Shown here in pieces: positions 7,584 to 35,305 of a stretch of DNA of 35,305 bases; position 1 is the stretch's first letter; the number at the start of each line of letters is the position of its first letter. The DNA is from a virus. The notes below the pieces were generated by a model, which was not told where the DNA came from, made no database searches, and saw nothing but the letters and a program-made list of their open reading frames with translations. The position numbers and the translations under genes were made by a program. Location of the stretch: positions 1 through 35,305 of IMG/VR virus record IMGVR_UViG_3300010885_034493. One strand, given 5' to 3'.

Positions 7584-7586
7584 AGG

Positions 7587-8540: not shown

Positions 8541-9028
8541 CCGGTCCTCCGACGAGAGCGCAGCACTAGCGAAGCCTGAGCGCGAGTGACGGGACCGGCT
8601 GACGGTGCGCCGATAGTCAGGCGATACGGAACGCCCTTGAGCAGACGAAGCCTATCGCCCGTCGTGGTGCGCAAGTCCAAGTTGGCGTGTGCGGTGCCGA
8701 TGATGGTGGTGCCGGTGACGCTCACCGTTTTGTCGAGAAGAAACGTAGTGTCGCCGTCAGTCACCGTGACGGTAGCGGTAACGGTTCTTCCAGCGGTACC
8801 GTCCTCAAGAGTGAGTCGAAGGACGCGCAGTTCGTAGTCGTCGGCTGGCGTGAAGTCGACGCAGCGAAGGCTGATGTCGTCGGCAATGGCGAGGGCAAGG
8901 CGCGTGACGGAAACGACGTGGTCCGACTGGCCAGCGACGGCGTTGTTGGTGAGCGTCGTCGTCTTGTCGTCGAAGTTGTTCCGCAGCGCTGCTTGCGTGA
9001 CGGTGCCGGTAAACGGTGTGAGCGCCAT
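8537..9028 (-). CDS. Small beta-rich virion protein
   Basis: A 163-residue product starting at ATG 9028, where TAATG overlaps the tail-hub stop. The N-terminus (PFTGTVTQAALRNNFDD) resembles the start of the next protein. The rest alternates Thr/Val with charged residues, as in beta sandwiches (GRTVTATVTVTDGDTTF). It is probably a minor tail or fibre-adaptor protein, based on position and composition. No named family is recognised. Confidence 0.6.
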   Translation of the reverse strand: MALTPFTGTVTQAALRNNFDDKTTTLTNNAVAGQSDHVVSVTRLALAIADDISLRCVDFTPADDYELRVLRLTLEDGTAGRTVTATVTVTDGDTTFLLDKTVSVTGTTIIGTAHANLDLRTTTGDRLRLLKGVPYRLTIGAPSAGPVTRAQASLVLRSRRRTG

Positions 9029-10500: not shown

Positions 10501-10507
10501 CTCATCC

Positions 10508-11959
10508 TCATTCGAAGTAGCCGTGAACCGCAACAGTACCGCGAAACACAAGGGACGCGGTAGCGGCGCCGGCTGGCACCTTCAAGATCACATGGACGAA
10601 CGTTCCCGGAGGCGCAGCAAGAGGCGTCGAGAAGTTCATTGGGAACCCGCTTGCGATAGTCCCGATCGCAGCAGCAGCAGCAAGAGCCTGCGTCCCCAAC
10701 GCTACACGTCGAGGACCAACGGTGGCGGCAGCGTCGGTTGTGGCGAGAGAGACAGCCGTTGAGCCGACAGCAAGCGCCCATTGAAAGAGCGTCGACGTAA
10801 CGACAGCGGCGCCAGTAACCGCCGTCTCGCCAATGCGAATGTCGGTGATGTAGAGCGTTTTTCCGGGAAGAATGTTGGTGCCGACAGGAACCTGATAGCC
10901 AAAGAGCGCATAATCAGTTTCAGCGCCGACCACCGCAGCAGCCTGCCATTGACCACCGAGCGTCGTGTAGCCAGCAGCGGTATTTGACAACGTCGCCGAA
11001 GCGGGGGCTGCGCTATTGGCGTAGTTCGCCGTCTGTCCGCTCGCCACGCCTTGCTGGTTTTGATGCGCGCCGCCGCCGCCGCCGACCATCTGGTGCGCCC
11101 ACGGTTTGTTGGTCATGACGTCGCCACCGGCAACCTGCATAAAGCCGATTTCGACACGACGACCAGCAGAGGCTACGCCGCTGTTGTAGACGCGCGCGAA
11201 GATCGGCTGCTGCGATGACGATGTTGGGCCGCCTTGCGTCGACGGCGTCTGAATACGAGCGACCAGAGCGTCATTGATCCAGAATTCGACGTCGTCGTTA
11301 TGGTTGCTGATGAGGTAGTGGTTCGTCTCGCTGGCATCATACACGCCGACGCCGTCACGCGAGGGAATGTTCGTTGGCGTAATGTTCGCGACCACTTCGG
11401 TGCCGGCAAAGTTGACGACGCCTTGAAGCTGACCACCAGAAAGACGGCGAAAGAAGATGCCGTCAGTCGGAGCAGCAACACCGGAAACATAGCCGAAGCC
11501 AAACTCGCTAACGGCATTGGTCGTAGTCGGATTGCCCTCACGGACCCAGAGGTCGCCGTAGGTCGGATAGCTGCCAAGAAGCGGGAAGCAGCGGTAGGTG
11601 CGGACGTTCGCTGCGTTACCAGATGCCGTTGCATTGCCGCTGTTGAGCGACAGAAAGCCGCTGGCCTGCGCTGCCGTCATCGTCGTCAGGTTCTGCTGCA
11701 AATGCGCCTGAGCGATCGTCGTGCCTTCAAACGACAGATTGAACAGCGGCTGGTCAGAGCCGACGCGCAGACGGTAGTCGTGGGATACTTCGACGGCGCG
11801 CACGGTACGAGCGCCCATGACGTCGCCGGCATCGACCTCCGACGACATCTGCACAAACCCAGCTTGTTCCTCTGCCTGCGGGGTAACGACATTGATGTTG
11901 AAGTTGGCGTCGACGTTTGCCTTGCCCGCCGTGCTGCTGCCGGTAGAGATTTGCGCCAT
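10508..11959 (-). CDS. Large beta-rich tail/fibre protein
   Basis: A 483-residue product starting at ATG 11959 after GGAGC. Residues about 45-290 look like one beta-sandwich domain with FGFGYVSG and VEFWINDALVARI, reminiscent of concanavalin-type folds. A Gly/His/Gln linker follows at about 300-315. The C-terminal domain resembles a type common in uncultured-phage virion proteins, with TTLGGQWQ, DYALFGYQVPVGTN and LYITDIRIG. No catalytic motif is visible. Its place among tail genes suggests a receptor-contacting or fibre-associated role. Confidence 0.6.
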   Translation of the reverse strand: MAQISTGSSTAGKANVDANFNINVVTPQAEEQAGFVQMSSEVDAGDVMGARTVRAVEVSHDYRLRVGSDQPLFNLSFEGTTIAQAHLQQNLTTMTAAQASGFLSLNSGNATASGNAANVRTYRCFPLLGSYPTYGDLWVREGNPTTTNAVSEFGFGYVSGVAAPTDGIFFRRLSGGQLQGVVNFAGTEVVANITPTNIPSRDGVGVYDASETNHYLISNHNDDVEFWINDALVARIQTPSTQGGPTSSSQQPIFARVYNSGVASAGRRVEIGFMQVAGGDVMTNKPWAHQMVGGGGGAHQNQQGVASGQTANYANSAAPASATLSNTAAGYTTLGGQWQAAAVVGAETDYALFGYQVPVGTNILPGKTLYITDIRIGETAVTGAAVVTSTLFQWALAVGSTAVSLATTDAAATVGPRRVALGTQALAAAAAIGTIASGFPMNFSTPLAAPPGTFVHVILKVPAGAATASLVFRGTVAVHGYFE

Positions 11960-11961
11960 GT

Positions 11962-12489
11962 TCAGCTCCGAGTGTAGTTGACGGTGTACGCGCCTTCGGC
12001 GTCACCATCGAGAGAGACAACGATAAGGTCAAAACCAACGCCGGCTGAGATGGATCCTACCGCAACGACGACCGGTGCAAGTTCCATTTCGTCGACGTCA
12101 CGTCCAACAAGCGCAACGGTGGGGACAATCTTCGACGCCGCCGTCACGCCGGCATCAGAAACGGTCACCTTCACGCTGTCTGCGCCACCGCTGAACGTCG
12201 CCGTCGCCTGCCCAAAGGTGCCACCGCTGCCGGTAGCTGCGATGACGACGGTGTTGCCAGCACCGTTGTCGGTGATCGTGATGCCAGAGCCAGCGGTCAA
12301 CACGCGCTCGTTGGTCAGCGTGGCATCAGTCGACAGCGTGACGTAAGTAGCCGTCGTCGGAGCACCGCCGCCGCCACCACCAGCAGCCCAGACGTAGGCG
12401 CTGCCATTCCATTGCAGCGTGTCTCCCGCTGTCGTCGGGGCAGCCGCCTCTTCGATGGGCTGCAGGCGTGTGCGGATAGGGCCGGTCAT
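11962..12489 (-). CDS. Short tail-fibre-like protein
   Basis: A 175-residue product from ATG 12489, overlapping the upstream stop by ATGA. Residues about 23-36 (GDTLQWNGSAYVWA) are the tryptophan-rich motif frequent in phage fibre shafts. A Gly run and TNERVLTAGSGITITDNG follow, also typical of fibre proteins. The C-terminus is beta-rich. It is probably a trimeric fibre or fibre connector next to the beta-helix protein. The receptor is unknown. Confidence 0.65.
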   Translation of the reverse strand: MTGPIRTRLQPIEEAAAPTTAGDTLQWNGSAYVWAAGGGGGGAPTTATYVTLSTDATLTNERVLTAGSGITITDNGAGNTVVIAATGSGGTFGQATATFSGGADSVKVTVSDAGVTAASKIVPTVALVGRDVDEMELAPVVVAVGSISAGVGFDLIVVSLDGDAEGAYTVNYTRS

Positions 12490-13208
12490 GTGTTCGACGT
12501 TACCGCGTCAGTTGACGTGTTCGTAATGATTCCGACGCCAGCATTACCGATAATTGTGTGACCACCAAGGCTTGCGGAAGTGTCTATGTTTCTTCCAAGC
12601 ATGCAGTTTAGTGAGATAACACAATTATTTGATCCAGCCTCAGCGACAACATCGCCAGCAAGAAGGTTTCCAGTAATCATTGTCGATGATCCACTTGGAA
12701 TTAAAACACTAATTTGGCTAACTGCGCCATAGCTTGACAAAAGATTTCCACGAATGGCCGCGCCAAAAGATGACTTTACGCATGTGTCAACGCCAACAAC
12801 CGAGCAATTCGTCATTTCTGAAAATTGCCCAAGCTTAATTCCAAACAGCGGATTCTGCACGCCAAGATTATTCGCAATAAGGAGATTGTTGAATACGGTG
12901 TTTGTCGATGTAGATGCGTCAAAAATGCAATCCATTAAATCAGACGCCGGAAAAATAGGAATCTTTCCGTGTGACTCAATCGTTATTCCTGGCGCATTTA
13001 TTACAATCGGACTTTTGATTGAGATTGGAGACGCAATTACAATTCTTCTGCCTGTTGCGGCGTACACGCTGCTTGAGTAATCTATGTTTTCGGTGTATGT
13101 GGCAGACCTTAATTCGTCTTCCGTGTGCACTTCACGAAAAACCTGCTGCTGAGAGACGGACGACATTGCCGCCCGCGCTCTTGGCCGCATGAAGACGCTG
13201 CTGGGCAT
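12486..13208 (-). CDS. Beta-helix (pectate-lyase-like) receptor-binding protein candidate
   Basis: A 240-residue product. The start at ATG 13208 follows GGAGA with good spacing; two GTG codons lie directly upstream. From about residue 50 on, short turns with stacked Asn, Ile, Val and Gly residues recur (PIVINAPGITIESHG, NTVFNNLLIANNLG, SSTMITGNLLAG), as in right-handed parallel beta helices of tailspikes. No catalytic residues can be assigned. The DNA is clearly more AT-rich than its neighbours, with codons such as ATT, AAT and GGA. This suggests recent exchange, typical for host-range genes. Confidence 0.65.
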   Translation of the reverse strand: MPSSVFMRPRARAAMSSVSQQQVFREVHTEDELRSATYTENIDYSSSVYAATGRRIVIASPISIKSPIVINAPGITIESHGKIPIFPASDLMDCIFDASTSTNTVFNNLLIANNLGVQNPLFGIKLGQFSEMTNCSVVGVDTCVKSSFGAAIRGNLLSSYGAVSQISVLIPSGSSTMITGNLLAGDVVAEAGSNNCVISLNCMLGRNIDTSASLGGHTIIGNAGVGIITNTSTDAVTSNT

Positions 13209-13888
13209 CACCACTCTCCGCGAACACGGATGAGTTGCAGCGATGGAGAAGTCGCAGACGGCGTGAAGATGTACGACAGGTTCCGCATGTTCGGATGACG
13301 GTAGACGGGCACCGACAGCGGCATTGTGCGCGGGTTGTTCAGCTTGTGCAGCGCATCTTCTTCCAGCTTGGCGGCAAGGCGCTCAAGCCCAGGACGCTGG
13401 TCATTGTCCTTCACTCCAAGCAGCAGAGCGGCCTCAGCGCAGACCCACGCATCGAAGGCGTGCGTCGACGGGGCAGAGACGGCTCCGTCTCCGATGAGCG
13501 GATAACCGGCGTTTGCGGGCAGCGTGTACTCTTTCACATAGGTGATGCGGAGACTGTAGACGCCGGGAACGTCAATCTCTCGGTCGCGCACCTTCGCCGG
13601 CATGACGGGCCAGTACGAGAACGGGGCGGAACCGGTGACGTACTGCACCGGGCCGATGCGCAAGATGTTGCCCAGCGTCGTGAGGTCGCACAGACCGGCG
13701 CTATTCGTCGACAGCGATGCCTCTCGGTCAAAGAGGCTGCCGCCCTCCTCGATGTACTTGGAGAGGCAGGCTGCCAGCGAGTACTGCAGCGCGGTGTTGA
13801 TTTCTGACTCAGGCCATCGACGCTGGTTCTGGTCGTCGAGGTTCTGCGAAACAAGCGCGCGTGCCTCAGCGACCGTCAATCCTGCCAT
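13208..13888 (-). CDS. Head-tail adaptor protein
   Basis: A 226-residue product. The opening (LTVAEARALVSQNLDDQNQ, then RWPESEINTALQ) is the helical pattern of phage adaptor proteins that bind below the portal: a helix, a W-x-E/D-x-E-I motif and a second helix. Later parts are mixed. A position after the capsid gene and before fibre and hub genes fits a connector between portal and tail hub. The start at ATG 13888 follows GGTGAG. It overlaps the upstream gene by 23 bases. Confidence 0.65.
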   Translation of the reverse strand: MAGLTVAEARALVSQNLDDQNQRRWPESEINTALQYSLAACLSKYIEEGGSLFDREASLSTNSAGLCDLTTLGNILRIGPVQYVTGSAPFSYWPVMPAKVRDREIDVPGVYSLRITYVKEYTLPANAGYPLIGDGAVSAPSTHAFDAWVCAEAALLLGVKDNDQRPGLERLAAKLEEDALHKLNNPRTMPLSVPVYRHPNMRNLSYIFTPSATSPSLQLIRVRGEW

Positions 13889-14282
13889 AGCTCACCTCGT
13901 AGAGAGCCCGCCAGAACTCGTCGTGCCCTACCGAAGAAGCCACGCGGCGAATTTCATTGCTGCGGGTGCGGCGGTCATCCTGGTATCGCGCCTTCATCTG
14001 CTCTTGCATGCGAGCACGACGTTCACGAACCAGCTTGAGAACATTCCATTGGTGCCGCTGCTTCTTGCTTTTCCAGACAAGACCGAGCGGCTTATCCATC
14101 GACACGTTGCGGATGGACACATGCGTGCGAATGGCGACGTGGACGACGGGGCCGACGATGCGCTCTCGCGTCTCTTCGGCCACCGTCATCTGCCCGTAGG
14201 CCATACGCGGCGTCAAACGGTGACGCGCGCCTTCCCGGCGAATCTGTCTCGCGACTTCAGCGGGGGAAACAACGCGCGCCAC
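13866..14282 (-). CDS. Basic hypothetical protein between capsid and adaptor
   Basis: A 138-residue product. GTG 14282 is preferred because AGGAG lies seven bases before it; TTG 14288 is too close to that site. The protein is strongly basic (many Arg and Lys, for example RERRARMQEQMKARYQDDRR) with helices in the second half. Position suggests head completion or a connector role. The basic charge would also suit binding packaged DNA. No family is recognised. Confidence 0.6.
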   Translation of the reverse strand: MARVVSPAEVARQIRREGARHRLTPRMAYGQMTVAEETRERIVGPVVHVAIRTHVSIRNVSMDKPLGLVWKSKKQRHQWNVLKLVRERRARMQEQMKARYQDDRRTRSNEIRRVASSVGHDEFWRALYEVSYGRIDGR

Positions 14283-14295
14283 CGTCAAACTCCTA

Positions 14296-15543
14296 TCAGA
14301 ATGCAGCGTTCAGGTTCGACATAGCGCCGAAGGCGTTACGACGCGGAACGCGCATGTTGATGCCGGCCGAGCAGAACAGGATCCACGACAGGCGGTTCTG
14401 CGAAAGCTGGAGGCTCTCACGCGACCAGCCCGCCGACTTGCCACCATCACCAGTCGGCGACGGTTCCCAGAAGACATGCAGCTTCGCCGAATACGCCTTC
14501 GCGTTGACGAAGTCCACACGCTTGCTGTTCTGCGCGTTGCTGACGACCACCGGGCAACCATCGAACTCCATGCGCGGCGCGTACTGGTCGAGCGTATCGC
14601 CCGGAGCATGACGCAGCGTGGGGTTCTGGCTCTCGTAGACCTTCTGTTCCTGGTACGGATCGACGATGAGGTGCGTCGGCTTCTCGCCACAAGCGCGGAA
14701 GATACGCTGCATCATGCGCTTACCGCTGGCGTTCGACCACGACGTCGTCGTCGAATCGAGCGTACCGGCGGGCTGGTCGGCAGCCGCAAGACCCGCGTAG
14801 AGCGCGATGCCCGACGTGGTGACGTCCTGCAGGTTCACGCAGCGGGGCGTCGAAGCCGAAGCAACCGCATTCGCACCGTTCGAACCCGCAAGGAAGATGC
14901 GGTCGGTGTTGACGAGGTTGCTGGTCAGGCTAGCGATCACGACAGCGCCGGTACCGTCGCCGTCATCGACGATCGACGTGACCTGAGCGTCGCTCTGCTT
15001 CAACGTGGTGCCGTTGCTGGCGTAGATGTCGACGAGACCACCGATCTGAAAGCCAGCGATCGACGTGACTTCAACGGTGACGTTGCTACCCGCCGTCTCG
15101 CTATTTTCCGGGTTGGCAAGTTCGTGACCGAGAATCGCGCGCTCCGTCAGACGGGCAAACTGGCGACCCAACTTCGCCATAGCCTGCTCGTAGACGTCGA
15201 TGCCGTCGCCACCACGCGCAACGCGCACGATGCCTTCGGGGAACTCAGCGTCACCCGACATAATCGCGTAGCCGTAGGTGCCCGAAGCGTAGGTGGCCTG
15301 CGCCGGGGTACGACGGGTGCCGCCGTCAGCAATGAAGCCCTGCGAAGCAAAGCCGCTGTTGTCGATCTGCACACGACCAACGTCGGTCGAACGCATGACC
15401 TCAAACACCTTGACTTTGTTCTTCGGCCCGTCGTCGGTCATCTTCCAATCGACGAGAACCGTGCTGTTGTCGACCTGATCCAGAAGGTCGTCACGACCAT
15501 CTTCCTGGAGCAGATCCTTCAATGCGGAGTAAGAGAACGCCAT
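14296..15543 (-). CDS. Major capsid protein (HK97-type)
   Basis: A 415-residue product lying directly after the scaffold gene. Its N-terminus is helical, and residues about 25-115 form an extended segment. Residues about 160-215 look like an inserted beta domain (VTVEVTSIAGFQIGGLVDIY). Then come a DPYQEQKVYESQ helix and GCPVVVSNAQNSKRVDFVN, similar to the A and P domains of HK97-fold capsid proteins. A length near 400 is usual for this fold without cleavage. ATG 15543 follows AAGGA. Very even GC-rich codon use suggests high expression. Confidence 0.8.
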   Translation of the reverse strand: MAFSYSALKDLLQEDGRDDLLDQVDNSTVLVDWKMTDDGPKNKVKVFEVMRSTDVGRVQIDNSGFASQGFIADGGTRRTPAQATYASGTYGYAIMSGDAEFPEGIVRVARGGDGIDVYEQAMAKLGRQFARLTERAILGHELANPENSETAGSNVTVEVTSIAGFQIGGLVDIYASNGTTLKQSDAQVTSIVDDGDGTGAVVIASLTSNLVNTDRIFLAGSNGANAVASASTPRCVNLQDVTTSGIALYAGLAAADQPAGTLDSTTTSWSNASGKRMMQRIFRACGEKPTHLIVDPYQEQKVYESQNPTLRHAPGDTLDQYAPRMEFDGCPVVVSNAQNSKRVDFVNAKAYSAKLHVFWEPSPTGDGGKSAGWSRESLQLSQNRLSWILFCSAGINMRVPRRNAFGAMSNLNAAF

Positions 15544-15566
15544 GTGACTCTATCCTTTCTCGACGG

Positions 15567-16496
15567 TCACACAGCGTGACCGAGTGCGCGCAACCGATTC
15601 AAGCGCCCATCGCGGGTGCGTGACTTAGGAAGCGTGGTCCCGGCAGAAACGCCGGAAACGGTGGGTGTGGGAGCAGTCGCGTTGACTTTGCGCTGCTTCC
15701 ATTCAAGGCGCTCAAGGACACGACCGGCGGCTTCCTCAAAAGAGATGCTCTCGCCAATAGCGCTTGCCGACTTGTACTCGCTGTAAATCGCCTTGATGTC
15801 GACGCCTTTGTCCCGCGACAGCTTCTGCATCTGCGCGACGGCGGCTTCGGCATCACGACGAATCTGAACCTGCTCCTGCTGCTGTTGCTGCTGCTGGTAG
15901 TAGGTGTCGCGCTGCTTTTGCAGTTCGACCATCTGCTGGGCCGACACATCGCGGCTGCGATAGTTCAGCAGCTCGAGGTCGCGAGGATCGACTTGCACAC
16001 CGGCAGTCTGAATCTGTTCGCGCAGGAACTTCACCTCTTCAAGGAGGCGACGGTTCTGCTCGACGGCTTTGCGGCCAACGTCTTCCCACTTGCCGATTTC
16101 CGTGCGGTACTGCTCCTGCAAGCCGGCATAAGCCTTCTGCGCAGGTTCAGCCCACGACGACGGGTCATCGGTCCACTGTGGCGCAGCAGGAGCCTCAACA
16201 GTCTTCTGAGTGGACTCAGGCTTACCGGGGCTATCGTTCGTCGACTGCAGGGCATCCTGAGAGGTCTCCGAGCGGACCTCCACCACCGGAGCGTTTGACT
16301 CCGATGATGGAAGTCCCTCACGGATGCGTTTCTTCAGTTCTCCGCGCTGTCGTCCCGCGAACTTTCCATCGGTTCCGCGTGACGGAGCAGACGACGCCGC
16401 AGGAGCCGCCGGTTGAGCGGCAGGGGCAGGAGAAGGAGCCGGCGCTGCGGTAGGAGCAGACGTCGGAGCCTGATTAGAAGAAACACTACCATCCAT
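15567..16496 (-). CDS. Capsid scaffolding protein
   Basis: A 309-residue product. ATG 16496 overlaps the upstream stop as TGATG; a GTG three bases earlier is possible. Residues 1-45 are Pro/Ala low complexity, then a GTDGKFAGR motif often found in phage scaffolds. The middle and end are charged helices with a Gln run near residue 200 (YYQQQQQQQEQVQ). The C-terminus is basic. This composition, with the gene placed just upstream of the capsid gene, is typical of scaffolds that guide procapsid assembly and then leave. Confidence 0.75.
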   Translation of the reverse strand: MDGSVSSNQAPTSAPTAAPAPSPAPAAQPAAPAASSAPSRGTDGKFAGRQRGELKKRIREGLPSSESNAPVVEVRSETSQDALQSTNDSPGKPESTQKTVEAPAAPQWTDDPSSWAEPAQKAYAGLQEQYRTEIGKWEDVGRKAVEQNRRLLEEVKFLREQIQTAGVQVDPRDLELLNYRSRDVSAQQMVELQKQRDTYYQQQQQQQEQVQIRRDAEAAVAQMQKLSRDKGVDIKAIYSEYKSASAIGESISFEEAAGRVLERLEWKQRKVNATAPTPTVSGVSAGTTLPKSRTRDGRLNRLRALGHAV

Positions 16497-17158
16497 CACG
16501 CAAACACCCCGTTATCGCCGAATCCCGGCGTGTCAAACTTGATCGTCTTCAAGTACGTCACAACGAACGTATCATTCGCGGCGGTAATCGTCCCACCGTG
16601 ATTGATCGAGCTGTTGGTCACATCGACCGACGTCGCCGAGATAGCGATCGGTGCCTGCTCGGTACCGCTCACGACCTTGACGATGCTCAGGACGTCGTTC
16701 ACCTTATCAATGGGGAACGCCAGCCCAAGACCATCGCCGCTGATGCCGCAAGTCAGCGCATCGCCAGAAGCAGCGCCGGTAACGGTGCGAACAACAACGC
16801 TGGTGATCTGATCGAACACCAGAGTCGTGGTGCCCGTCGTGGCCGAGCCGCTGGTGCAGGTAACGCTGACGCGCTCGTTGATCGGTTTACCAAAACGGTG
16901 ACCAAAGAACTCTACCGTCGCAGCAAGACCGCCGCCGCCACCAGAAGCGTCGGTGAGAACCAGCGTGACCTTACGGGCAACGCGGAACATCAGGCCAGAA
17001 GCCGTCGCAGCGAGCGTAAGCGCTGAACCGCTCGACAATCCCGAAGGATCGACAGAGGCAACGACGTAGTTCACGGTGACTGCGCGCGGATTCGGGATGA
17101 CTTCCCGGAACATGCGCAGCGCCGACCTTTCGTCGACTTGATTGAGAACAATAGCCAT
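16496..17158 (-). CDS. Beta-rich head protein, possible decoration protein
   Basis: A 220-residue product starting at ATG 17158 after a perfect GGAGGT site. Ser, Thr, Val and Gly alternate through most of the length (SALTLAATASGLMFRVARKV), typical of beta sandwiches. It lies between the C1q-like protein and the scaffold gene, one base after the previous stop. A capsid surface or head-associated role is inferred from this position. No catalytic motif is present. Confidence 0.55.
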   Translation of the reverse strand: MAIVLNQVDERSALRMFREVIPNPRAVTVNYVVASVDPSGLSSGSALTLAATASGLMFRVARKVTLVLTDASGGGGGLAATVEFFGHRFGKPINERVSVTCTSGSATTGTTTLVFDQITSVVVRTVTGAASGDALTCGISGDGLGLAFPIDKVNDVLSIVKVVSGTEQAPIAISATSVDVTNSSINHGGTITAANDTFVVTYLKTIKFDTPGFGDNGVFA

Positions 17159-17159
17159 T

Positions 17160-17636
17160 TCAGACCTCCATCACGTTGAACGCACCGGCGGCGGTCGTGA
17201 AGTTACCGGTCGAAGCGATAACCTTGACGGTAACGACATCACCGACCGCGCAGTTCAAGACGGCTTCGCCCGAAAGCTGAATGGCCTGCGTCGCCGTCGC
17301 CGGCTGCGTCACCTTGCAGGTACCGCCCTGACCCGTCGCGCCGATAAACGATTGGATCGTCAGAACCTGCGAGTTGACAGCGGTGATGTCCGAGAAGCAG
17401 TAGTTGACGCGGTACAGACCGGCCTTCGTGATCGTCACGGTGCCGGCAGTAGCGTCGACGATGACGCCGCTGCTACGGCTGTTCGTCCACGCGCTCGCAG
17501 CGGTGATGGTGGTAGCGGCAGTAGGGGTGGTAACGGCAAGCGAAGCGCCGACCGTCAGGTACGCATACTGCGGAGCCGAAACCAGGCCGTCAGGGTGGTT
17601 CTTGGCATCGGCAGAACGCTGGATTGCAATCGACAT
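17160..17636 (-). CDS. C1q/TNF-like jelly-roll protein, decoration candidate
   Basis: A 158-residue product starting at ATG 17636 after AAGGAGA. The second half has the pattern of C1q/TNF-like jelly rolls: VTITKAGLYRVNYCFSD, then paired strands, LSGEAVLNCAVGDVVTVKV and a final hydrophobic strand. Such domains form trimers and occur in phage fibres and capsid decorations. Here the gene opens the head cluster, which favours decoration. The function is inferred, with the fold called from sequence pattern only. Confidence 0.6.
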   Translation of the reverse strand: MSIAIQRSADAKNHPDGLVSAPQYAYLTVGASLAVTTPTAATTITAASAWTNSRSSGVIVDATAGTVTITKAGLYRVNYCFSDITAVNSQVLTIQSFIGATGQGGTCKVTQPATATQAIQLSGEAVLNCAVGDVVTVKVIASTGNFTTAAGAFNVMEV

Positions 17637-17657
17637 AACGAGTCTCCTTTTCAGTCG

Positions 17658-17678
17658 GGTCGGTAAAGGCTACCGACC
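17658..17678. terminator. Hairpin between lysis and head genes
   Basis: GGTCGGTA (17658-17665) and TACCGACC (17671-17678) form an 8-bp stem with a 5-base loop. In the minus-strand direction no U-tract follows; instead the ribosome site of the 17160-17636 gene comes next. It may therefore be an attenuator, RNA-processing or stability element and not a classical terminator. Confidence 0.4.
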
Positions 17679-17701
17679 GCGTTGTAGCGCTGTCAACTTA
17701 C

Positions 17702-18220
17702 CTATGTAACTGCGAAAACTGGTCGAACAGCGCGAACCGTGTAAACTTTAGGGTCGTTTCCCCACGTTGTAGCACCGCGAAGGGTATCCTTGCTGATGAC
17801 GATGTCGTCGCCAGTAGCAGGATCTGAACAGACGAAGTCGCCGATGTCACTCAGGCTATGCGCGAGCACCCAATGGTCGCCGCGTTCGTCGTTTTTGTGG
17901 TCGACGTGCAGCAAACAGCACCCCTTTGCGATCAGCGCTGAACGGACTGCGGGCGAAATCTCTGCTCCAGTAACGATGGACTTGATGTCGAGTCCTGCCG
18001 GCCCCTGGATAGCGCTCCAAACGATGAGTTCGCCCCTAAACGCCTGTTTGTCTCGTCCCATCGCGCTGAGATGAGGCGGCAACAGCTCCATCGCGCGCAA
18101 AAACCCGGCGGCTTCGCATAGGCAAGTCAAAACGCAGCCATAACGACCGATGGTTCCGGGTCCAAAACCCAGAGTCGCCTTCGACCATCGAGGATCAGCT
18201 TGACGCAATCGCTTTGACAC
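17702..18220 (-). CDS. C39-like cysteine peptidase, probable endolysin
   Basis: A 172-residue product from GTG 18220, with GAAGGA as ribosome site. The opening DPRWSKATLGFG followed by GTIGRYGC matches papain-like C39 peptidases, with Cys29 as the likely nucleophile. DHWVLA gives His116, and SDPATG gives Asp133 as the third residue. Proteins of this type in phages probably cut peptide bonds in cell-wall cross-links. It has no signal peptide, so release would need a holin. Two small membrane proteins lie directly upstream. A virion-processing protease is the alternative. Confidence 0.7.
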   Translation of the reverse strand: MSKRLRQADPRWSKATLGFGPGTIGRYGCVLTCLCEAAGFLRAMELLPPHLSAMGRDKQAFRGELIVWSAIQGPAGLDIKSIVTGAEISPAVRSALIAKGCCLLHVDHKNDERGDHWVLAHSLSDIGDFVCSDPATGDDIVISKDTLRGATTWGNDPKVYTVRAVRPVFAVT

Positions 18221-18277
18221 GGCATCCTTCTCGTCGAGAACCGATGTGTCTCCCCCCGTGTCGGATCTCTCCTAGCG

Positions 18278-18304
18278 CAGCGCCCCGAAAGGGGCGTTGT
18301 GTCT
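18278..18304. terminator. GC-rich hairpin with GAAA loop
   Basis: CGCCCC (18281-18286), loop GAAA, GGGGCG (18291-18296), extended by C-G, A-T and G-T pairs at the base. On the plus strand a T-rich run (TTGTGTCTTTT) follows, as in intrinsic terminators. On the minus strand, the direction of the surrounding genes, no T-run follows. It may block antisense transcription or act as a processing or pause hairpin between the holin-like gene and the peptidase gene. Confidence 0.45.
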
Positions 18305-18305
18305 T

Positions 18306-18527
18306 TTAGGGCTTCTTATTCAACGAAATCTTCTCGATCCCATCGGCGATGACGTCGGCGGCATCGGCAGCAGCGTCGTTTGCCGGGTCTTTGTCGCTAT
18401 GGGCGCGCTTCGCGTAGGAGCGCAGCAAGCCAACGACGACGTCGCGGGCGAAAAGAGCCAGCAGAACCATCACAACCTGCGCGACGGCATGCGGGCTGAC
18501 GAGGTCTTTGGCGAACATCTCGAGCAT
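18306..18527 (-). CDS. Small membrane protein, holin candidate
   Basis: A 73-residue product. ATG 18527 is chosen because GGAGG stands at the correct distance; a longer TTG start at 18539 overlaps the previous gene. Residues about 14-36 form a hydrophobic segment (AVAQVVMVLLALFARDVVVG), followed by a basic patch and a polar tail. One membrane segment beside a peptidase gene suggests a holin or holin-like protein. An Arg-Asp pair in the segment is unusual, so the assignment is tentative. Confidence 0.5.
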   Translation of the reverse strand: MLEMFAKDLVSPHAVAQVVMVLLALFARDVVVGLLRSYAKRAHSDKDPANDAAADAADVIADGIEKISLNKKP

Positions 18528-18528
18528 C

Positions 18529-18762
18529 TCAGCCTCCAAACTTCGTTAGGACGGTTTCCAGTCGGTCAAAGCGCCGGTCCAAGTCCTCGCGGAGCCTGTC
18601 GACAGCGCCTTTGACGGCATCGAGGCTTTCCTTGCTGGCTTTGTCGGCCTTCAACTCAGCCACAACCTCTTCCAAGCGGCCAACGCGCGCCTGCAGGGTC
18701 GCCCATGCTGCTGCACCTCCGACGACGGAAGAGATAGATGCGGTTACGATGGTTTCGATCAA
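18529..18762 (-). CDS. Membrane-anchored coiled-coil protein, lysis candidate
   Basis: A 77-residue product from TTG 18762, which overlaps the previous stop as TTGA and follows GGAGG. Residues 4-22 are a membrane segment (TIVTASISSVVGGAAAWAT). The rest is a heptad-rich coiled coil with Leu, Val and charged residues (LEEVVAELKADKASKESLD). N-terminal anchor plus long coiled coil is the layout of inner-membrane spanins; small holins with coiled tails are an alternative. The lysis neighbourhood supports either reading. Confidence 0.5.
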   Translation of the reverse strand: MIETIVTASISSVVGGAAAWATLQARVGRLEEVVAELKADKASKESLDAVKGAVDRLREDLDRRFDRLETVLTKFGG

Positions 18763-19286
18763 GGTGTTCCTCCGTCGACTGCTGAGAGATCATATCCTTC
18801 GGTGCGATCTGCCGGCGTCGGGCCACCGCCCCATTGAATGGGGATACCTACAGGACTTCCAGGCGTAAGAACAGCGACGGCTTGACCGATGCTCCCACCA
18901 TCAGGGGTTTCGCCGGTCAGCACTTCTCGCCACTCACGCGCTTGTTCTCGCGTCAGCGCCATAGCCACTTGGCATCCAGCACCGTTAGGCAGCGTGTGAA
19001 AGCCGCTAATCGCGTTGGCCTCAAGCATCGAATAAATGTCTCGCGCCGCTTGTGCCTTATCTCCGTCAAGACCAGACACTTCGCCAGGACGATCACCACC
19101 ACCCTCAAGGAGAACAGCGCATTGGTCCGTTGCCGGGTCAGCAACCAATACACAGTCTCCTTCGTTGGGAGCGCATTCGATCAAGAACTGGCCAGTAGGC
19201 GACAGCGTCGACGACAGATAGGCAAAACCACCGGCGATGGAGCCACCGACTGCAACGAGAAGAGCGGCAAGACGATTACGGTTCAC
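18759..19286 (-). CDS. Membrane-anchored hypothetical protein in the lysis cluster
   Basis: A 175-residue product. GTG 19286 overlaps the upstream stop as GTGA; a longer start at 19331 is less likely. Residues 5-24 are hydrophobic (RLAALLVAVGGSIAGGFAYL), probably a signal anchor. The remaining domain has four Cys and many acidic residues and would face the periplasm or outside. It ends in a Gly/Pro tail. The family is not recognised. Genes on both sides also carry export or membrane segments. Confidence 0.55.
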   Translation of the reverse strand: MNRNRLAALLVAVGGSIAGGFAYLSSTLSPTGQFLIECAPNEGDCVLVADPATDQCAVLLEGGGDRPGEVSGLDGDKAQAARDIYSMLEANAISGFHTLPNGAGCQVAMALTREQAREWREVLTGETPDGGSIGQAVAVLTPGSPVGIPIQWGGGPTPADRTEGYDLSAVDGGTP

Positions 19287-21448
19287 GGTGCCACCAGAGC
19301 AGGCCAGAGACGAACGCGCGACAACAAACAACCCGTCTGCGCAGCCGTACCTCCCTGCGTTCCAAGATAAACAAAAGATGAAACTTCTGTCGGCAACGTA
19401 GCCAACGCATCAGTCCCGATACTCAAACCATCGTAGTACGCTTGGATGCTATTCGTTGCCATTGTCTGACGAAGGTTATGCGCCACACCGTCAGAAACGT
19501 CTCCGCTTGCTGCGGTAATCTGCCATTGAACCGATGAGACGACGCCAAGGGCCTCAGCAAAGTCGGTGCTCGCCACACGCAAGCCAGCGTAGTTGGTGCC
19601 GGTGGTTCCAACCGATGCAAAGAGGCGAGAAGTGTCGGTGTCATGCGGCGGGCAAAGCACCTGCACGTCCATCGTCGTTGGACTACCGGTGTAGTGACTT
19701 GCGCCGTCAAATCTGACGTCATCAGCATTGCGTGCTGTTGGCGCCGCTGTCGTTGCAAGGTAGCTGGTCATGATGGGGAACGCTTCAACGCGCACGCCCC
19801 AGAAGCCGCAGTCAGCCGTCGCATCGGCGTCGGTGTAGGTCAGCACGCCGTCAGATGGAGCGCACAACAAATCGTGGTCATTTGGCGCAGCGGTGCCGGT
19901 GTAACTGATGGAGATGCGGCAAAGGCTAACGTCGGCAATTCCATCGCCTGTCGTATCGGCGGGCCAGCGTTGAGCGCGTGCCTGGATGACACCAGCCTGC
20001 ACCGTCTTGACCGCAGAGGTGCAGTCTTCTCCGATGGTGCATGACGCCGACGTGCAAGTGGCGATGTCGAACCATGCGGCGCCGTTCACGACGGTGTTGT
20101 CACGCAGAACAGCAAACGTCTGCGCGCCGGCCTTCGCCCACGCTGAAAACGTGTGCGTCGCTGCCGTCAGCGTGATCGACTGCCGCAAGCCATGCTCGCC
20201 AAGACTATTGGCGCCGTCGACGTCGTCACCCGTCGTCGTCAGGTCAGCGCCAGCCCATGCATCGACGAGAACAGTATCGCCGACCGTGAGAGCCGTCCAC
20301 GTCGCTTCCAACGTCTGGCTTTGAAGCGCGATGTTTGAGACAGCCGGTTCATTCATGTAGCCGGCAAGCGCTGTACCGCCGGAATAAGTACGACGAGCAA
20401 CGCGCGGTGCATTGTTGCCGGCTAGATAAAGCTGTCGTGTGCCGCCGTCGACGACGTCAATGTGCCCAGTAGTGGCGCGCGCCATTGTCGTTGGCGCAGA
20501 TAAGCCGACAGCAAGAGACGGTGCGATGCCAAATGCGGTGACAGTTCGCTGACGCGCGATCGGCGCCCATTGCGCTGGATTAGTCGCGCCGCCGGCCATG
20601 CAGCCCGAGCAACGCCACACGCGGATTGACGAGACCGTAGCGGCGTTCGATGAACCCGCCGACGCCGCACCAACTGCCAACGTCGACGCATTCGTCGCGG
20701 AAGCGGAGCGACCAGAAAAATCCACGCCGCTGCCGGCTGCACCGTTGCCGTAAGCCACCGCGCCGTTTGTGCTCGCCTCAGAGCGATCGATGAACGCAAT
20801 AAAATGCGTCCACGACGACGTTTGTCCAGTTGCGCCAATGACCGACGCCGTCACCGACGCGGTGCGAAGTTGAAGCTGCATGGCTGCCGTTGTCGACTGC
20901 GATAAACGCCAACCATCGGTGCCGGCAAGGCCCTTATCGATAACGACGGCACCAGAGGTTGCGCTCAGTTTGCCCACATACTCGACGACAAAATCGTCGG
21001 TGGTCAAGTCGCCAATCGTCGACGACGCCGCATCGTGGCGTTTCTGCGTTGTCCCGTAGGTGGTCTGCCGTTCAACGGCATCGAGCGCATGAAACGGCGT
21101 GCTAATCGTCGTCGTCGGCGATGACCCGGTACCCGCTTCTGACAAAGTCACGACGCCGCTGCTATTGCGGCAAGTCCAGTTCGTGCCCGAAATACCCTGT
21201 GCGTCACACGCGAGGACCAACGTCATCGACGTGCTGTTGACCGTGAGGCTATCGCTCAGGTCATTCGGCGTCGTGCTGCCGGCAACGAGGTCGAAGTTAG
21301 GCGACGGGGGCGCAGCGGCACCAGACGGTGATCCGTTCGCGCTGTTCCAGCCGAGCGAAGCGTCGCCGCGCATGCCAGCAAACGGGCGAAGCGCCGTCGC
21401 CAGAACCGGGGCCGACAGCAGCGCCAGAACGACGACGATACGCTGCAT
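19283..21448 (-). CDS. Exported multi-domain LamG-like carbohydrate-binding protein
   Basis: A 721-residue product. ATG 21448 overlaps the previous stop as TGATG; GTG 21451 is possible. It starts with a cleavable-type signal peptide (MQRIVVVLALLSAPVLATA). Residues about 120-290 look like a concanavalin/LamG domain with WTHFIAFIDR and ATVSSIRVW. Residues about 370-575 resemble a sugar-binding sandwich of phage fibres, ending in WGVRVEAFPIMTSYLATT. Residues about 590-720 look like a second LamG domain ending in LLSRVRLW. Many Cys residues suit an oxidising compartment. A signal peptide on a late phage lectin is unusual. It may act at the host surface or in exclusion, or be a fibre assembled in an odd way. 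Confidence 0.65.
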   Translation of the reverse strand: MQRIVVVLALLSAPVLATALRPFAGMRGDASLGWNSANGSPSGAAAPPSPNFDLVAGSTTPNDLSDSLTVNSTSMTLVLACDAQGISGTNWTCRNSSGVVTLSEAGTGSSPTTTISTPFHALDAVERQTTYGTTQKRHDAASSTIGDLTTDDFVVEYVGKLSATSGAVVIDKGLAGTDGWRLSQSTTAAMQLQLRTASVTASVIGATGQTSSWTHFIAFIDRSEASTNGAVAYGNGAAGSGVDFSGRSASATNASTLAVGAASAGSSNAATVSSIRVWRCSGCMAGGATNPAQWAPIARQRTVTAFGIAPSLAVGLSAPTTMARATTGHIDVVDGGTRQLYLAGNNAPRVARRTYSGGTALAGYMNEPAVSNIALQSQTLEATWTALTVGDTVLVDAWAGADLTTTGDDVDGANSLGEHGLRQSITLTAATHTFSAWAKAGAQTFAVLRDNTVVNGAAWFDIATCTSASCTIGEDCTSAVKTVQAGVIQARAQRWPADTTGDGIADVSLCRISISYTGTAAPNDHDLLCAPSDGVLTYTDADATADCGFWGVRVEAFPIMTSYLATTAAPTARNADDVRFDGASHYTGSPTTMDVQVLCPPHDTDTSRLFASVGTTGTNYAGLRVASTDFAEALGVVSSVQWQITAASGDVSDGVAHNLRQTMATNSIQAYYDGLSIGTDALATLPTEVSSFVYLGTQGGTAAQTGCLLSRVRLWPALVAP

Positions 21449-21801
21449 CACATGCTCCCGTAAACGACGTCGACAGCGATGGTGCCAGAGGCAGCGGCGC
21501 AGTACATACGCTTGACGTCAGCGCAGAACACCTGACCACCAGAGCAGCCGCTACCGATAGCAAGCGATGTGCTGCTGGTGACGCCAGAGCCGCCAATCTG
21601 AACGCAGGTAGCGCTGGTATTTTCGATGCACATCGTAGATGCACCAGACGGAGCGATCAGGGTCGCGGTGCCGGTGCAGCTCACCGACGTGTTCTGCAAC
21701 TCCACGACGGGGTTCGACAGCGCATGGGCGATCGGCGGCGCAAGACCGACGAGCATCAGCACCAGACCGAGGATGAGATACGGGGCGGCTTCTTTCTTCA
21801 C
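21448..21801 (-). CDS. Small exported Cys-rich protein
   Basis: A 117-residue product from GTG 21801, overlapping the portal stop as GTGA. Residues 8-27 are a hydrophobic export or anchor segment (YLILGLVLMLVGLAPPIAHA) after a Lys-containing start, with an AHA cleavage-like end. The mature part is beta-like and has seven Cys, consistent with disulfides outside the cytoplasm. It is coupled to the LamG protein by overlapping stop and start, so the two probably act together. The family is not recognised. Confidence 0.6.
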   Translation of the reverse strand: MKKEAAPYLILGLVLMLVGLAPPIAHALSNPVVELQNTSVSCTGTATLIAPSGASTMCIENTSATCVQIGGSGVTSSTSLAIGSGCSGGQVFCADVKRMYCAAASGTIAVDVVYGSM

Positions 21802-31362: not shown

Positions 31363-31646
31363 GACGCGCGGCACGACGAGACGACAACGAGCGCGACGTC
31401 ATCGCGGCGCTGATCAAGGTGGGCTGCACGGTGCAAGCGCTCACCCAAGGCGATGGTGTCCCTGACCTGCTTGTCGGCGTTCCCAGTGGCCGGCTCATCG
31501 TCATCGAGGTGAAAGACGGCAGCAAGGCCCCCAGCCAACGCAGGCTGACGGAAAAGGAACTCGCATGGCACCACAAGTGGGCGGCGTTTCCAGTCTTTAT
31601 CGTCGAGAACGTTGAACAGGCGGTCAAGTTGTCGAGGTGGTCTTGA
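31359..31646 (+). CDS. VRR-NUC-type nuclease
   Basis: A 95-residue product from ATG 31359 (ATGA overlap); the longer frame from 31257 is not used. The VRR-NUC pattern is complete: Glu11 in ERDVIAAL, Asp36 in GVPDLLVG, Glu50 and Lys52 in VIEVKDG. This PD-(D/E)XK family includes structure-specific phage nucleases, often thought to resolve branched DNA. Here it stands in a recombination operon. The length is typical of the single-domain form. Confidence 0.85.
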   Translation: MRRAARRDDNERDVIAALIKVGCTVQALTQGDGVPDLLVGVPSGRLIVIEVKDGSKAPSQRRLTEKELAWHHKWAAFPVFIVENVEQAVKLSRWS

Positions 31647-32269
31647 GAGTTCTCATTGCATGCGAGTTTTCGGGGACGGTACGCGATGCCTTCACGGCAG
31701 CAGGACACTACGCAGCATCGTGTGATTTGCTCCCTACTGAGACGCCAGGACTGCACTACCAAGGGGACGTGCGCCATGTCCTAAACGAAGGATGGGATCT
31801 GATGATCGCCCATCCACCATGCACTTACCTGACGAACGCGGCCGCATGGGCGTTTGGCGATGGCCCGTACCATCAGAAGGTAAAGGCGGGAACGCTGGTC
31901 GGCGCTGCTCGACGCGCCGCGCGTGATGAGGCGGTCGCATTTGTTTCGACATTGTGGGACGCGCCAATTGCTCGGGTGGCCATCGAGAACCCGGTCGGCG
32001 CGTTGTCCACGGCATGGCGTAAGCCAGACCAGACAGTTCAGCCGTGGCAGTTCGGCCATGACGCTAGCAAAGCGACGTGCTTGTGGCTGCGAGGACTGCC
32101 GCCGCTTGCGCCGACTGATGTTCTGCCAGGAGGCACAGCCGCCAGGAGAGCGAACCAGACCGGCAGCGGCCAGAACAAGCTGCCGCCGACAGCGGACCGA
32201 TGGAAAATTCGAAGCCTGACCTATCCGAGAATTGCGGCTGCGATGGCCGCGCAATGGGGAAACCAATGA
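31643..32269 (+). CDS. C5-cytosine-methyltransferase-like phage protein
   Basis: A 208-residue product. TTG 31643 is chosen because it overlaps the previous stop as TTGA. The order ACEFSG (cofactor region), CDLLPTETPG, HPPC at 57-60 with a possible catalytic Cys, IENP at 114-117, then QPWQFGHDASKATCLWLRGL is shared by a frequent phage protein type often annotated as cytosine methyltransferase. It is much shorter than classic C5 enzymes and lacks an evident target-recognition domain. Its true reaction is therefore uncertain. Confidence 0.7.
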   Translation: MRVLIACEFSGTVRDAFTAAGHYAASCDLLPTETPGLHYQGDVRHVLNEGWDLMIAHPPCTYLTNAAAWAFGDGPYHQKVKAGTLVGAARRAARDEAVAFVSTLWDAPIARVAIENPVGALSTAWRKPDQTVQPWQFGHDASKATCLWLRGLPPLAPTDVLPGGTAARRANQTGSGQNKLPPTADRWKIRSLTYPRIAAAMAAQWGNQ

Positions 32270-32552: not shown

Positions 32553-32792
32553 ATGATTGAACGATACCGTGGACCACGTCGGATTCGCGTCGACGGCGAC
32601 CGTCTTGCCGCACTACGAACGCAGCGAAACCTCACCCTTGCCAACGTCGCCACCGTCTGCGGCGTTAGCCGTCAAGCGGTCTGCCAATGGGAAAAGGAAC
32701 AGTCGATTCCCGATGACCGCGCGCTTGAAGGGCTGGCGCAAATTTTTGGCGAGGACTTGAACAACGCAGTCAGCGTGAAGGTGTGGGAATGA
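32553..32792 (+). CDS. Second HTH (Xre-type) regulator
   Basis: A 79-residue product from ATG 32553 after GGGAGA; an upstream GTG frame (32472) runs through the structured leader and is not used. Residues about 14-66 are an HTH_3 domain (DRLAALRTQRNLTLANVATV, then SRQAVCQWEKEQSIPDDRAL). It is probably a transcription regulator, perhaps acting on the leader or the shared promoter motif. It is coupled to the nuclease gene by ATGA. Confidence 0.75.
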   Translation: MIERYRGPRRIRVDGDRLAALRTQRNLTLANVATVCGVSRQAVCQWEKEQSIPDDRALEGLAQIFGEDLNNAVSVKVWE

Positions 32793-33505
32793 CAACGAAG
32801 AAAGCAAAGAAGCCGCGTCGTCAGTACAAGGACAAGGACGGCAACAAACTTCCCAGCGTGACCACAATCCTTGGCGCCGCTATGGCGAAACCAGGACTCA
32901 TCCATTGGGCCGCGAAGGTGTCCGCAGAGGCGACTGCAGAGGCTATCATCGACGGTTTCTCGTCGCGTGAAGAGGCTATCGATGTCGGCACCAAAGCGCC
33001 TAACAGCTACCGCGACCATGCTGCGGGGCTAGGAACGACGGCACACGCGCTCATCGAAGCGCATTATGCCGGCGAAGAGGTGGTCATTGAAGGCGAAGAC
33101 GCCGCGATGCTGGCCAACTGCTACGAGCGCGCCCGCAAGGCGATCGATGAGCGATGGATCGTAGAGCATAGCGAGTGCGCGCTGGTGTCAGAGCTGGGTT
33201 TTGGCGGCACGTTCGACCTCATCTGTCTCGATAAAGCCAACGGCAACCGCATACTCGTCGACCTGAAGACGGGCAGCTACCACCCCGAAGCAATATCGCA
33301 GTTGGCCGCCTACAAGCAGATGTGGGAAGAGCACAACCCGACAGCGCTCATTGACGGTGCCGCTATTCTGCACGTCCCGATCAAAGAGGACGGCTACAAG
33401 GTGGTGACCATCGGGGATGAGTCTTTGCGGGCTGGATGGTCGCTGTTCCTTGCGGCGTTTCAGATTTACCGGCTGCTGCCGCAGATGGTGTTTGACGTAC
33501 CATGA
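32789..33505 (+). CDS. PD-(D/E)XK nuclease, Cas4/RecB-like
   Basis: A 238-residue product from ATG 32789 (ATGA overlap). The RecB-type nuclease pattern is visible: His86 in GTTAHALIE, Asp143 in GGTFDLI, Asp158 and Lys160 in LVDLKTG, Gln171 and Tyr175 in QLAAY. Such phage exonucleases feed single strands to annealing proteins. With RecT-like protein and SSB in the same operon, it is probably the exonuclease partner. No Fe-S Cys cluster of full Cas4 is seen. Confidence 0.82.
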   Translation: MTTKKAKKPRRQYKDKDGNKLPSVTTILGAAMAKPGLIHWAAKVSAEATAEAIIDGFSSREEAIDVGTKAPNSYRDHAAGLGTTAHALIEAHYAGEEVVIEGEDAAMLANCYERARKAIDERWIVEHSECALVSELGFGGTFDLICLDKANGNRILVDLKTGSYHPEAISQLAAYKQMWEEHNPTALIDGAAILHVPIKEDGYKVVTIGDESLRAGWSLFLAAFQIYRLLPQMVFDVP

Positions 33506-34134
33506 GTCCACATGTGCTCGTCGGGGAGTCAACGTCACATCGTATCGTTGAGTCGTGCACTACGCTTGGATGGGGGCGAATGTGGGTCTATCGAAACATT
33601 CGACCGATCAGCGGCGAGCGATGGGGCTTTGACAACGGTGTGTTCAAGACGTGGGACCGCACCGGGCCGATGCGTCGAGAGCAATTCGACGTCGACGGAT
33701 ACCTTTGGCGCGTGGATAGGGCGCACAAGGTAGGCACACCATATCTTGCCGTCGTTCCTGACCTGATTGCGGCAGGTAATGCCTCGCTCGACTTCTCGCT
33801 TGAGTGGCGAACAAGGCTGCCGCGCGAGTGGCCACTTTATTTGGCGGTTCAGGACGGCATGGATAGTGAGCGGGTGGAAAACTATCTGGCTTGCAATCTT
33901 TTTAGCGGAATCTTTCTGGGGGGTTCAACGGAATTCAAGAAAACGGCGCCGATGTGGTGCGCTATGGCACACAAGTACGGGACACGTTTCCACTATGGGC
34001 GATGCTCGTCGATACGGGCATGGGACCGCGCATGCGCAATGAACGCAGATAGCGTGGACAGTTCGCAGATGCTTTGGTCGTGGAAGGCGCTGCGGGCTTT
34101 TGAGAACGCCACGGGGCAAAAAACTCTTTTCTAA
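33502..34134 (+). CDS. DpdA-like (TGT-superfamily) DNA transglycosylase candidate
   Basis: A 210-residue product from ATG 33502 (ATGA overlap). The pattern resembles phage DpdA-like proteins, relatives of tRNA-guanine transglycosylase that exchange guanine in DNA for a 7-deazaguanine. Visible pieces are RWGFDNGVF, YLAVVPDLIAAG (Asp87), YLAVQDGM, IFLGGSTEFK, RFHYGR and ADSVDSS. It lies directly before queD, whose product starts deazaguanine synthesis. That neighbour supports the call. Other TGT-barrel functions remain possible. Confidence 0.55.
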   Translation: MSPHVLVGESTSHRIVESCTTLGWGRMWVYRNIRPISGERWGFDNGVFKTWDRTGPMRREQFDVDGYLWRVDRAHKVGTPYLAVVPDLIAAGNASLDFSLEWRTRLPREWPLYLAVQDGMDSERVENYLACNLFSGIFLGGSTEFKKTAPMWCAMAHKYGTRFHYGRCSSIRAWDRACAMNADSVDSSQMLWSWKALRAFENATGQKTLF

Positions 34135-34142
34135 GGTGATAC

Positions 34143-34520
34143 ATGAACGAAGTAACGATCAGCAAGCGCTTTGACTTTGACGCGGCCCATTGGCTTCCGC
34201 ACGTTTGCGAGGGACACAAGTGCGGACGGATGCATGGACATACCTACGTTGTCGAACTTCGGCTGCGCGGTGTTCCTGACAAGCGCATGGGATGGTTCGT
34301 CGACTATGCGGAGATTGCGGCAGCATGGGCACCGCTCAACGACCAGCTCGATCATCGGCTGCTGAACGAGATCGAGGGGCTCGACAACCCCACAACCGAA
34401 GTGCTCGTCACATGGATTGCAAGCAAGCTGAAACAAACGTCGATCGGTCAATGGTTGTGTGCGGTGCGCGTCTACGAGTCGTCGACGACGTGGTGTGAGA
34501 TGGTGTTCGATGACGCTTGA
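34143..34520 (+). CDS. queD: QueD, 6-carboxytetrahydropterin synthase
   Basis: A 125-residue enzyme of the queuosine/7-deazaguanine pathway, converting dihydroneopterin triphosphate to carboxytetrahydropterin. Zinc-binding His16 (DAAH) and His31/His33 (MHGHTY), catalytic Cys27 (GHKCGR) and the LDHRLLNEIEGL and NPTTEVL motifs are all present and close to bacterial QueD. QueE, QueC and FolE genes are absent, so the host pathway would be boosted and not replaced. Its DpdA-like neighbour suggests the product is used on DNA. Confidence 0.92.
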   Translation: MNEVTISKRFDFDAAHWLPHVCEGHKCGRMHGHTYVVELRLRGVPDKRMGWFVDYAEIAAAWAPLNDQLDHRLLNEIEGLDNPTTEVLVTWIASKLKQTSIGQWLCAVRVYESSTTWCEMVFDDA

Positions 34521-34731
34521 AGAACGCTGCGCTTTTCTTGAGCGCGAACTTTTCGAAGTAGGCATCCAGCTTGACGCCGCGCAGAAACGGCTTCGTCTTG
34601 CGGATGAGCTGGCAAAAGCGGTCAGAACATGGCGCGAGAACTGCGACCAATATGTATGGATGGTCGATAAGGCCATGCACGAATGGAACAAAGTACCAGG
34701 CGACGAACTGCACGACACGGAGGGAAGATGA
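34510..34731 (+). CDS. Small coiled-coil protein
   Basis: A 73-residue product from ATG 34510, overlapping the queD end by 11 bases; the longer frame from 34459 is not used. The N-terminal half has heptads (LEERCAFLERELFEVGIQLD). It is acidic at the end and overlaps the next gene by ATGA. The function is unknown. Confidence 0.6.
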   Translation: MTLEERCAFLERELFEVGIQLDAAQKRLRLADELAKAVRTWRENCDQYVWMVDKAMHEWNKVPGDELHDTEGR

Positions 34732-35036: not shown

Positions 35037-35305
35037 TGTTCACAGAGCGGTTAGCGCAAAGGCGCTTTGTGTTTGATGGCGAAGATCGCAAGGTCGAGGT
35101 CTGGTGGCGGCATGACGGATTTTTTGTCGTATCGAGTCTTCGTCGACGCGATCCGCAGAATGATAGAAAAGAACCGCCCGATCCCCCGCGCCGGCAAGCA
35201 AGTGGGGAAAGGGCGGCACGTGAGCGGTTGATCACTCCCCCCCATCATCGGGTCCGTAGCGTAGGCTGTCAACAGAAAAGACAAGTGTGGGTCGAGGTCC
35301 GGAAC
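35036..35305 (+). CDS. 5' part of the junction-spanning hypothetical protein
   Basis: ATG 35036 shares a base with the previous stop. The frame continues through the terminal repeat and, on the circle, into 124-201, giving 115 residues. The N-terminus (RRFVFDGEDRKVEVWWRHDG) is beta-like. A basic Pro/Arg region follows. No family is recognised. An uninterrupted frame over the join supports circularity. Confidence 0.7.
   Translation, partial: MFTERLAQRRFVFDGEDRKVEVWWRHDGFFVVSSLRRRDPQNDRKEPPDPPRRQASGERAARERLITPPHHRVRSVGCQQKRQVWVEVRN
35183..35305. repeat. Direct terminal repeat, right copy
   Basis: This is identical over 123 bases to 1-123. Collapsing the two copies gives a circular unit of about 35,182 bp. 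The join is inside a gene in the middle of the early operon. Confidence 0.95.

Follow-up and report, generated by a model that had tools for sequence, protein, structure and literature searches.

In phages that encode the full preQ0 pathway, such as CAjan and the Rosebush-like phage Rinkes, the transglycosylase DpdA (290–306 aa) adjoins the preQ0 genes. Other phages carry dpdA only, and for these Hutinet et al. (2019) proposed that the base is supplied by the host or taken up (PMC6884629). The 'DpdA only' phages, including Salmonella phage 7-11 and SEN1, encode a short transglycosylase assigned to PHROG 887, and their genomes lack a complete preQ0 pathway (PMC6884629, PMC8306585). In Fishburnevirus, a DpdA-like tRNA-guanine transglycosylase is partnered by a Vut_1/YhhQ-type transporter. 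The TGT fold is also found in bacterial TGT (PF01702) and in Cap10 of type IV CBASS, which acts on a protein-linked nucleobase (PMC11996544).

The window analysed here, a whole IMG/VR virus record of 35 305 nt, encodes a 210-residue protein, here called mini-DpdA, directly before queD. As in CAjan and Rinkes, the transglycosylase gene adjoins a preQ0 gene, but the protein is shorter than the DpdAs of those phages, and folE, queE and queC are absent; Rinkes dpdA is matched by the mini-DpdA family profile, whereas CAjan DpdA is not. The 'DpdA only' phages are likewise matched by profile, and share with mini-DpdA a TGT-type motif order (DNGAF, PD, HGL/HxG, ADS) and an incomplete pathway; they differ in their PHROG and in a PVWH motif, whereas mini-DpdA belongs to PHROG 15826, has a Q-D-G motif and is adjoined by queD. 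The Fishburnevirus protein is of the same family by tblastn (~30 % identity, similar length), with the transporter in place of queD. Bacterial TGT has the barrel fold and catalytic positions in common with mini-DpdA, which is about 55 % of its length. The features of the locus and of the genome ends are as follows.

1–123: direct terminal repeat, left copy, identical to 35183–35305
32789–33505, plus strand: PD-(D/E)XK exonuclease, its stop codon overlapping the dpdA start (ATGA at 33502–33505); operon context
33502–34134, plus strand: mini-dpdA, compact TGT/DpdA-like transglycosylase, 210 aa, ATG start (PHROG 15826)
34133–34139, plus strand: AAGGTGA, a Shine-Dalgarno-like sequence overlapping the dpdA stop codon, before queD
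34143–34520, plus strand: queD, 6-carboxytetrahydropterin synthase, 125 aa, ATG start (PF01242, TIGR03367)
34510–34731, plus strand: small ORF, 73 aa, its start overlapping the queD stop codon; operon context
35183–35305: direct terminal repeat, right copy, identical to 1–123

The two reading frames lie exactly where the initial annotation had placed them. The 35-kb phage genome is complete, since an exact 123-bp direct repeat is present at both ends; it is circular as assembled, and its overlapping ends leave 35 182 bp of unique sequence. Completeness is important because the dpdA–queD pair is <800 bp from the contig end. A fragment artefact, with other pathway genes lying past that end, was rejected on the 123-bp overlap. 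In the circularized genome, profiles from phage relatives found no queC, queE, folE or yhhQ, a single phage QueF used as query found no queF, and PF06508 found nothing. The preQ0 pathway is thus represented in the complete genome by queD only, together with mini-dpdA, as had been proposed from the sequence at the outset. The accompanying description of the phage as a minimal version of the system requires qualification: most related lineages examined carry mini-dpdA without a flanking pathway gene, and the idea itself is known, because host supply for dpdA-only phages was already proposed in 2019 (Hutinet et al.; PMC6884629).

By its family matches, the product of 34143–34520 is certainly QueD. 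It matches PF01242 (E 5e-31) and TIGR03367 (95.3 bits, over the curated cut-off of 89.25), and, of the zinc and catalytic residues claimed for it, the sequence has H16, C27, H31 and H33 (the CxxxHGH signature) and D70-H71. Only 8 nt separate mini-dpdA from queD, and the run of exonuclease, dpdA, queD and 73-aa ORF looks like a single operon that closes a replication/recombination module (in order, DnaB, RecT-like, SSB, resolvase-like and exonuclease). The small ORF, taken as a longer frame, has no Pfam match. Two DNA methyltransferase genes are also present in the window, at 611–1387 and 31637–32269, one of the N6/N4 type (PF01555) and one of PHROG 757; given these, the phage may join several DNA modifications.

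Single-sequence searches with mini-DpdA gave no Pfam family, no meaningful NCBIfam match and no PDB sequence, and PDB sequence-profile searches gave nothing meaningful. The sole family match is PHROG 15826, which is labelled 'unknown function'. With a seven-sequence alignment, at least 437 related viral loci were found, and the 80 best were retained. AlphaFold2, given a 63-sequence alignment, predicts a barrel with a mean pLDDT of 94.4. In a Foldseek search of the PDB with this model, many TGTs were matched, with the top TM-scores of the list (0.55–0.63), and Cap10 was matched at 0.61; non-TGT barrel enzymes had similar E-values and mostly lower TM-scores. A TGT-type barrel, whose absence had been named beforehand as grounds to refute the assignment, is therefore what the structure prediction returned. 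Amongst the significant matches to viral models, queuine tRNA-ribosyltransferases recur. The best viral structural match, UniProt A0A0F7L9Z1 from an uncultured marine virus, has 499 aa, 2.4 times the query length, and is possibly a fusion of mini-DpdA with another domain.

The profile comparison suggested in the initial annotation was also run. The family profile matches one built from 13 known phage DpdAs at 97.3 % (E 2e-11) and six bacterial TGTs at 84.5 % (E 7e-6), a much stronger similarity to phage DpdA than to TGT. In the reverse direction, the 13-DpdA profile was run against all six frames of the circularized genome, and the mini-dpdA ORF was the best and only significant match (E 1.1e-4). 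The DpdA-like pieces first noticed in the 210-aa protein (VVPDLIAAG, VQDGM, FLGGSTEFK, HYGR and ADSVDSS) are all present, and on this result the resemblance exceeds chance. Together with the predicted fold, these profile matches indicate that 33502–34134 encodes a compact protein of the TGT/DpdA superfamily.

In a scan of seven phage genomes, the family profile retrieved the genes annotated as dpdA in Rinkes, 7-11 and phi3ST:2; in CAjan, nt-1, CP220 and HVTV-1 it found nothing (for the last three, at E <= 1). Membership of DpdA2, DpdA3 or DpdA4 thus found no support in the results for nt-1, CP220 (linked to DpdA3) and HVTV-1 (linked to DpdA4). Mini-DpdA also falls outside the annotated phage DpdA family, as it matches neither PHROG 887 nor the NCBIfam DpdA model NF041059, under whose cut-off known phage DpdAs likewise score.

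Six positions or pairs (D44, D87, Q117, G140-G141, H164 and D186) are shared by nearly all the 68 lineages compared and are proposed as active-site residues, with D186 as the putative nucleophile. In the profile alignment with bacterial TGTs, D186 aligns with the TGT nucleophile Asp280, and Q117 and G140-G141 with Q203 and G229-G230; D44 and D87 are paired with TGT D102 and D156 by motif order only. The TGT-type catalytic Asp pair and base-binding residues are thus present in TGT order. H164 is invariant in the 68 rows and aligns near the invariant His of known phage DpdAs; it may correspond to His196, a histidine that DpdA2 lacks (PMC6884629). A TGT-like Gln, within the Q-D-G motif, occupies the site at which canonical phage DpdAs (PHROG 887) show PVWH. 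This Gln, with the fold and the catalytic positions, would also suit a small tRNA-acting TGT that, with QueD, raises queuosine in the tRNAs used during infection, so improving translation; queuosine boosting has been proposed for phages with pathway genes but no dpdA (Hutinet et al., PMC6884629). We consider a tRNA substrate unlikely, as mini-DpdA, at 210 aa, is without the zinc subdomain found at the C-terminus of TGT (there is no CxCxxC motif and no PF01702 match), its profile similarity is far stronger to phage DpdA, its gene shares an operon with a DNA exonuclease of the replication module, and a TGT is already encoded in 12 of the 14 cellular genomes in which a relative occurs.

It is likely, in our judgement, that mini-DpdA is a guanine transglycosylase that puts a 7-deazaguanine into phage DNA, with queD boosting supply and the host supplying the rest. 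By TGT chemistry, the enzyme would cleave the glycosidic bond at certain guanines of the phage genome's DNA, Asp186 would hold the sugar during the exchange, and a 7-deazaguanine base, either preQ0 or a pathway intermediate, would be inserted. The phage queD would raise flux at the 6-carboxytetrahydropterin step, while the host would provide either FolE, QueE and QueC or a base obtained by salvage. The likely benefit would be escape from host restriction. We infer four elements here, namely that the substrate is DNA and neither RNA nor protein, which base is inserted, that the host supplies the rest and that the phage is protected; the mechanism starts from the observed family, fold, conserved active-site positions, complete genome, absence of pathway genes and recurrent linkage to preQ0 genes. 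Published findings count against this reading, as among dpdA-only phages 7-11 has trace dADG and Orion none (PMC6884629), and MED16 DNA, with dADG in it, remained open to cutting by most of the enzymes tried (PMC8306585).

Relatives were compared as 67 lineages, defined as 80 % identity clusters of viral contigs from the scan. A preQ0-pathway or preQ0-transporter gene is present in the stored flanks of 21 of the 67, invariably on the same strand, and adjoins mini-dpdA in 20, usually as a single gene. The partner identities of the representatives were confirmed with family models, and are listed below by lineage.

queD: L002, L010/L013, L047, L083
queC: L019, L044, L045, L048, L052, L054, L073, L080
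queE: L042, L043
queE and queD: L038
queE and queC: L081
queC and queD: L072
folE: L078
Vut_1/YhhQ: L027, L061
full preQ0 set: L058/L065

Partner gain or loss requires at least 13 changes on a quick tree. These pairings with a single gene or a transporter fit a partial pathway that would be finished by the host and, taken with the missing pathway genes, the one-gene pairings support 7-deazaguanine use and a design in which the phage supplements the host. Cap9/Cap10 is itself a pair of QueC-like and TGT-like proteins (PMC11996544), several relatives pair mini-dpdA with QueC, and Cap10, a remodelled TGT, is amongst the better PDB matches. Mini-DpdA might by this comparison handle a protein- or small-molecule-linked 7-deazaguanine, as an anti-defence protein rather than a DNA modifier. 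To this we give hardly any probability: no PADLOC defence model matches mini-DpdA, the FolE, QueD, QueE and preQ0-transporter partners point to free-base supply, and the profile match is to DNA-modifying DpdAs.

The stored flanks of 46 of the 67 lineages hold no pathway gene at all; missing partners are weak evidence because most of the related records are fragments. Such flanks, and the lack of modification in Orion, a singleton-DpdA phage (PMC6884629), would fit unrelated neighbours, QueD boosting the pterin or queuosine metabolism of the host, and the transglycosylase being a remnant without a substrate. Against this, 20 of 26 flank pathway matches lie directly beside mini-dpdA, with a chance of ~1e-11 under random placement, a rough value that assumes the number of genes per locus. 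Both genes are also under purifying selection, with dN/dS values of 0.12 (dpdA) and 0.08 (queD) relative to the homologous pair in contig L002. That contig has the same dpdA–queD pair, the proteins being 94 and 91 % identical, with a different upstream gene, and the pair forms the principal stretch of alignment between it and the phage. We therefore regard a chance association as very improbable, and the pair appears to behave as a small exchangeable cassette.

Among the 14 cellular genomes with a relative, QueC was matched in 12 (11 at full length) and TGT in 12, which is consistent with host supply. Micromonospora (L116) has neither QueC nor TGT, and there a Vut_1/YhhQ-type gene adjoins mini-dpdA. 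The arrangement is the same in Fishburnevirus mycobacteriophages, and mycobacteria have none of the preQ0 pathway genes (PMC6884629); a transporter would explain access to the base in a host without the pathway. These few cases suggest that the partner gene may match the metabolic gap of the host. A broader proposal, that PHROG 15826 is a large, unannotated family of barrel-only transglycosylases, a plug-in shared by phages with widely differing hosts, to which each phage adds the single preQ0 gene or transporter that host supply needs, its content reporting the host gap, and that at the extreme an unusual intermediate replaces preQ0, is put forward only tentatively, as a possibility that we think doubtful.

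The identification of PHROG 15826 with a subfamily of mini-DpdAs, with recurrent single-gene partners, appears to be new; the 2023 DpdA survey, which reportedly names further subfamilies, DpdA3 and DpdA4, may cover part of it. Through it, a widespread phage family with no Pfam entry, labelled 'unknown function' in PHROGs and represented by the at least 437 viral loci, would gain a function that can be tested. At ~210 residues and without the zinc domain, mini-DpdA would be a very small transglycosylase of the TGT/DpdA type. The source of the base in dpdA-only phages, which was open in the 2019 survey, becomes a prediction, namely that the partner gene marks the limiting step of the host.

This phage stands well apart from those that have been isolated. 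In its structural module (window 2759–21451, minus strand), most of the large proteins scanned are without a PHROG match (722, 415, 483, 507, 456 and 745 aa), and the terminase had no relative amongst 50 697 phage records in a search aimed at host assignment. For the same purpose, the DnaB helicase gave distant relatives only, from many hosts.

Some related loci deserve mention in their own right. Lineage L058 encodes both mini-DpdA and a canonical DpdA (5803–6468 and 9571–10527) beside its full preQ0 set; this record cannot establish mini-DpdA activity because the canonical DpdA is also there, and its full pathway was dropped as direct support for preQ0 insertion by mini-DpdA. In L029, a 28-residue queD piece just upstream of mini-dpdA (2583–2666) is possibly a decayed queD. 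A relative in PHROG 15826 from Erythrobacter phage ZS04 (L003, 7980–8621) is named 'DarB-like antirestriction protein' in GenBank; profile evidence points to a transglycosylase instead. In GreaseLightnin and Phegasus, both Fishburnevirus mycobacteriophages, the gene immediately upstream of the DpdA-like one is labelled 'hypothetical protein' but encodes a queuosine-precursor transporter of the Vut_1/YhhQ type, at the following positions.

L005, 7379–7936: Vut_1/YhhQ-type gene, Fishburnevirus GreaseLightnin
L007, 4376–4933: Vut_1/YhhQ-type gene, Fishburnevirus Phegasus
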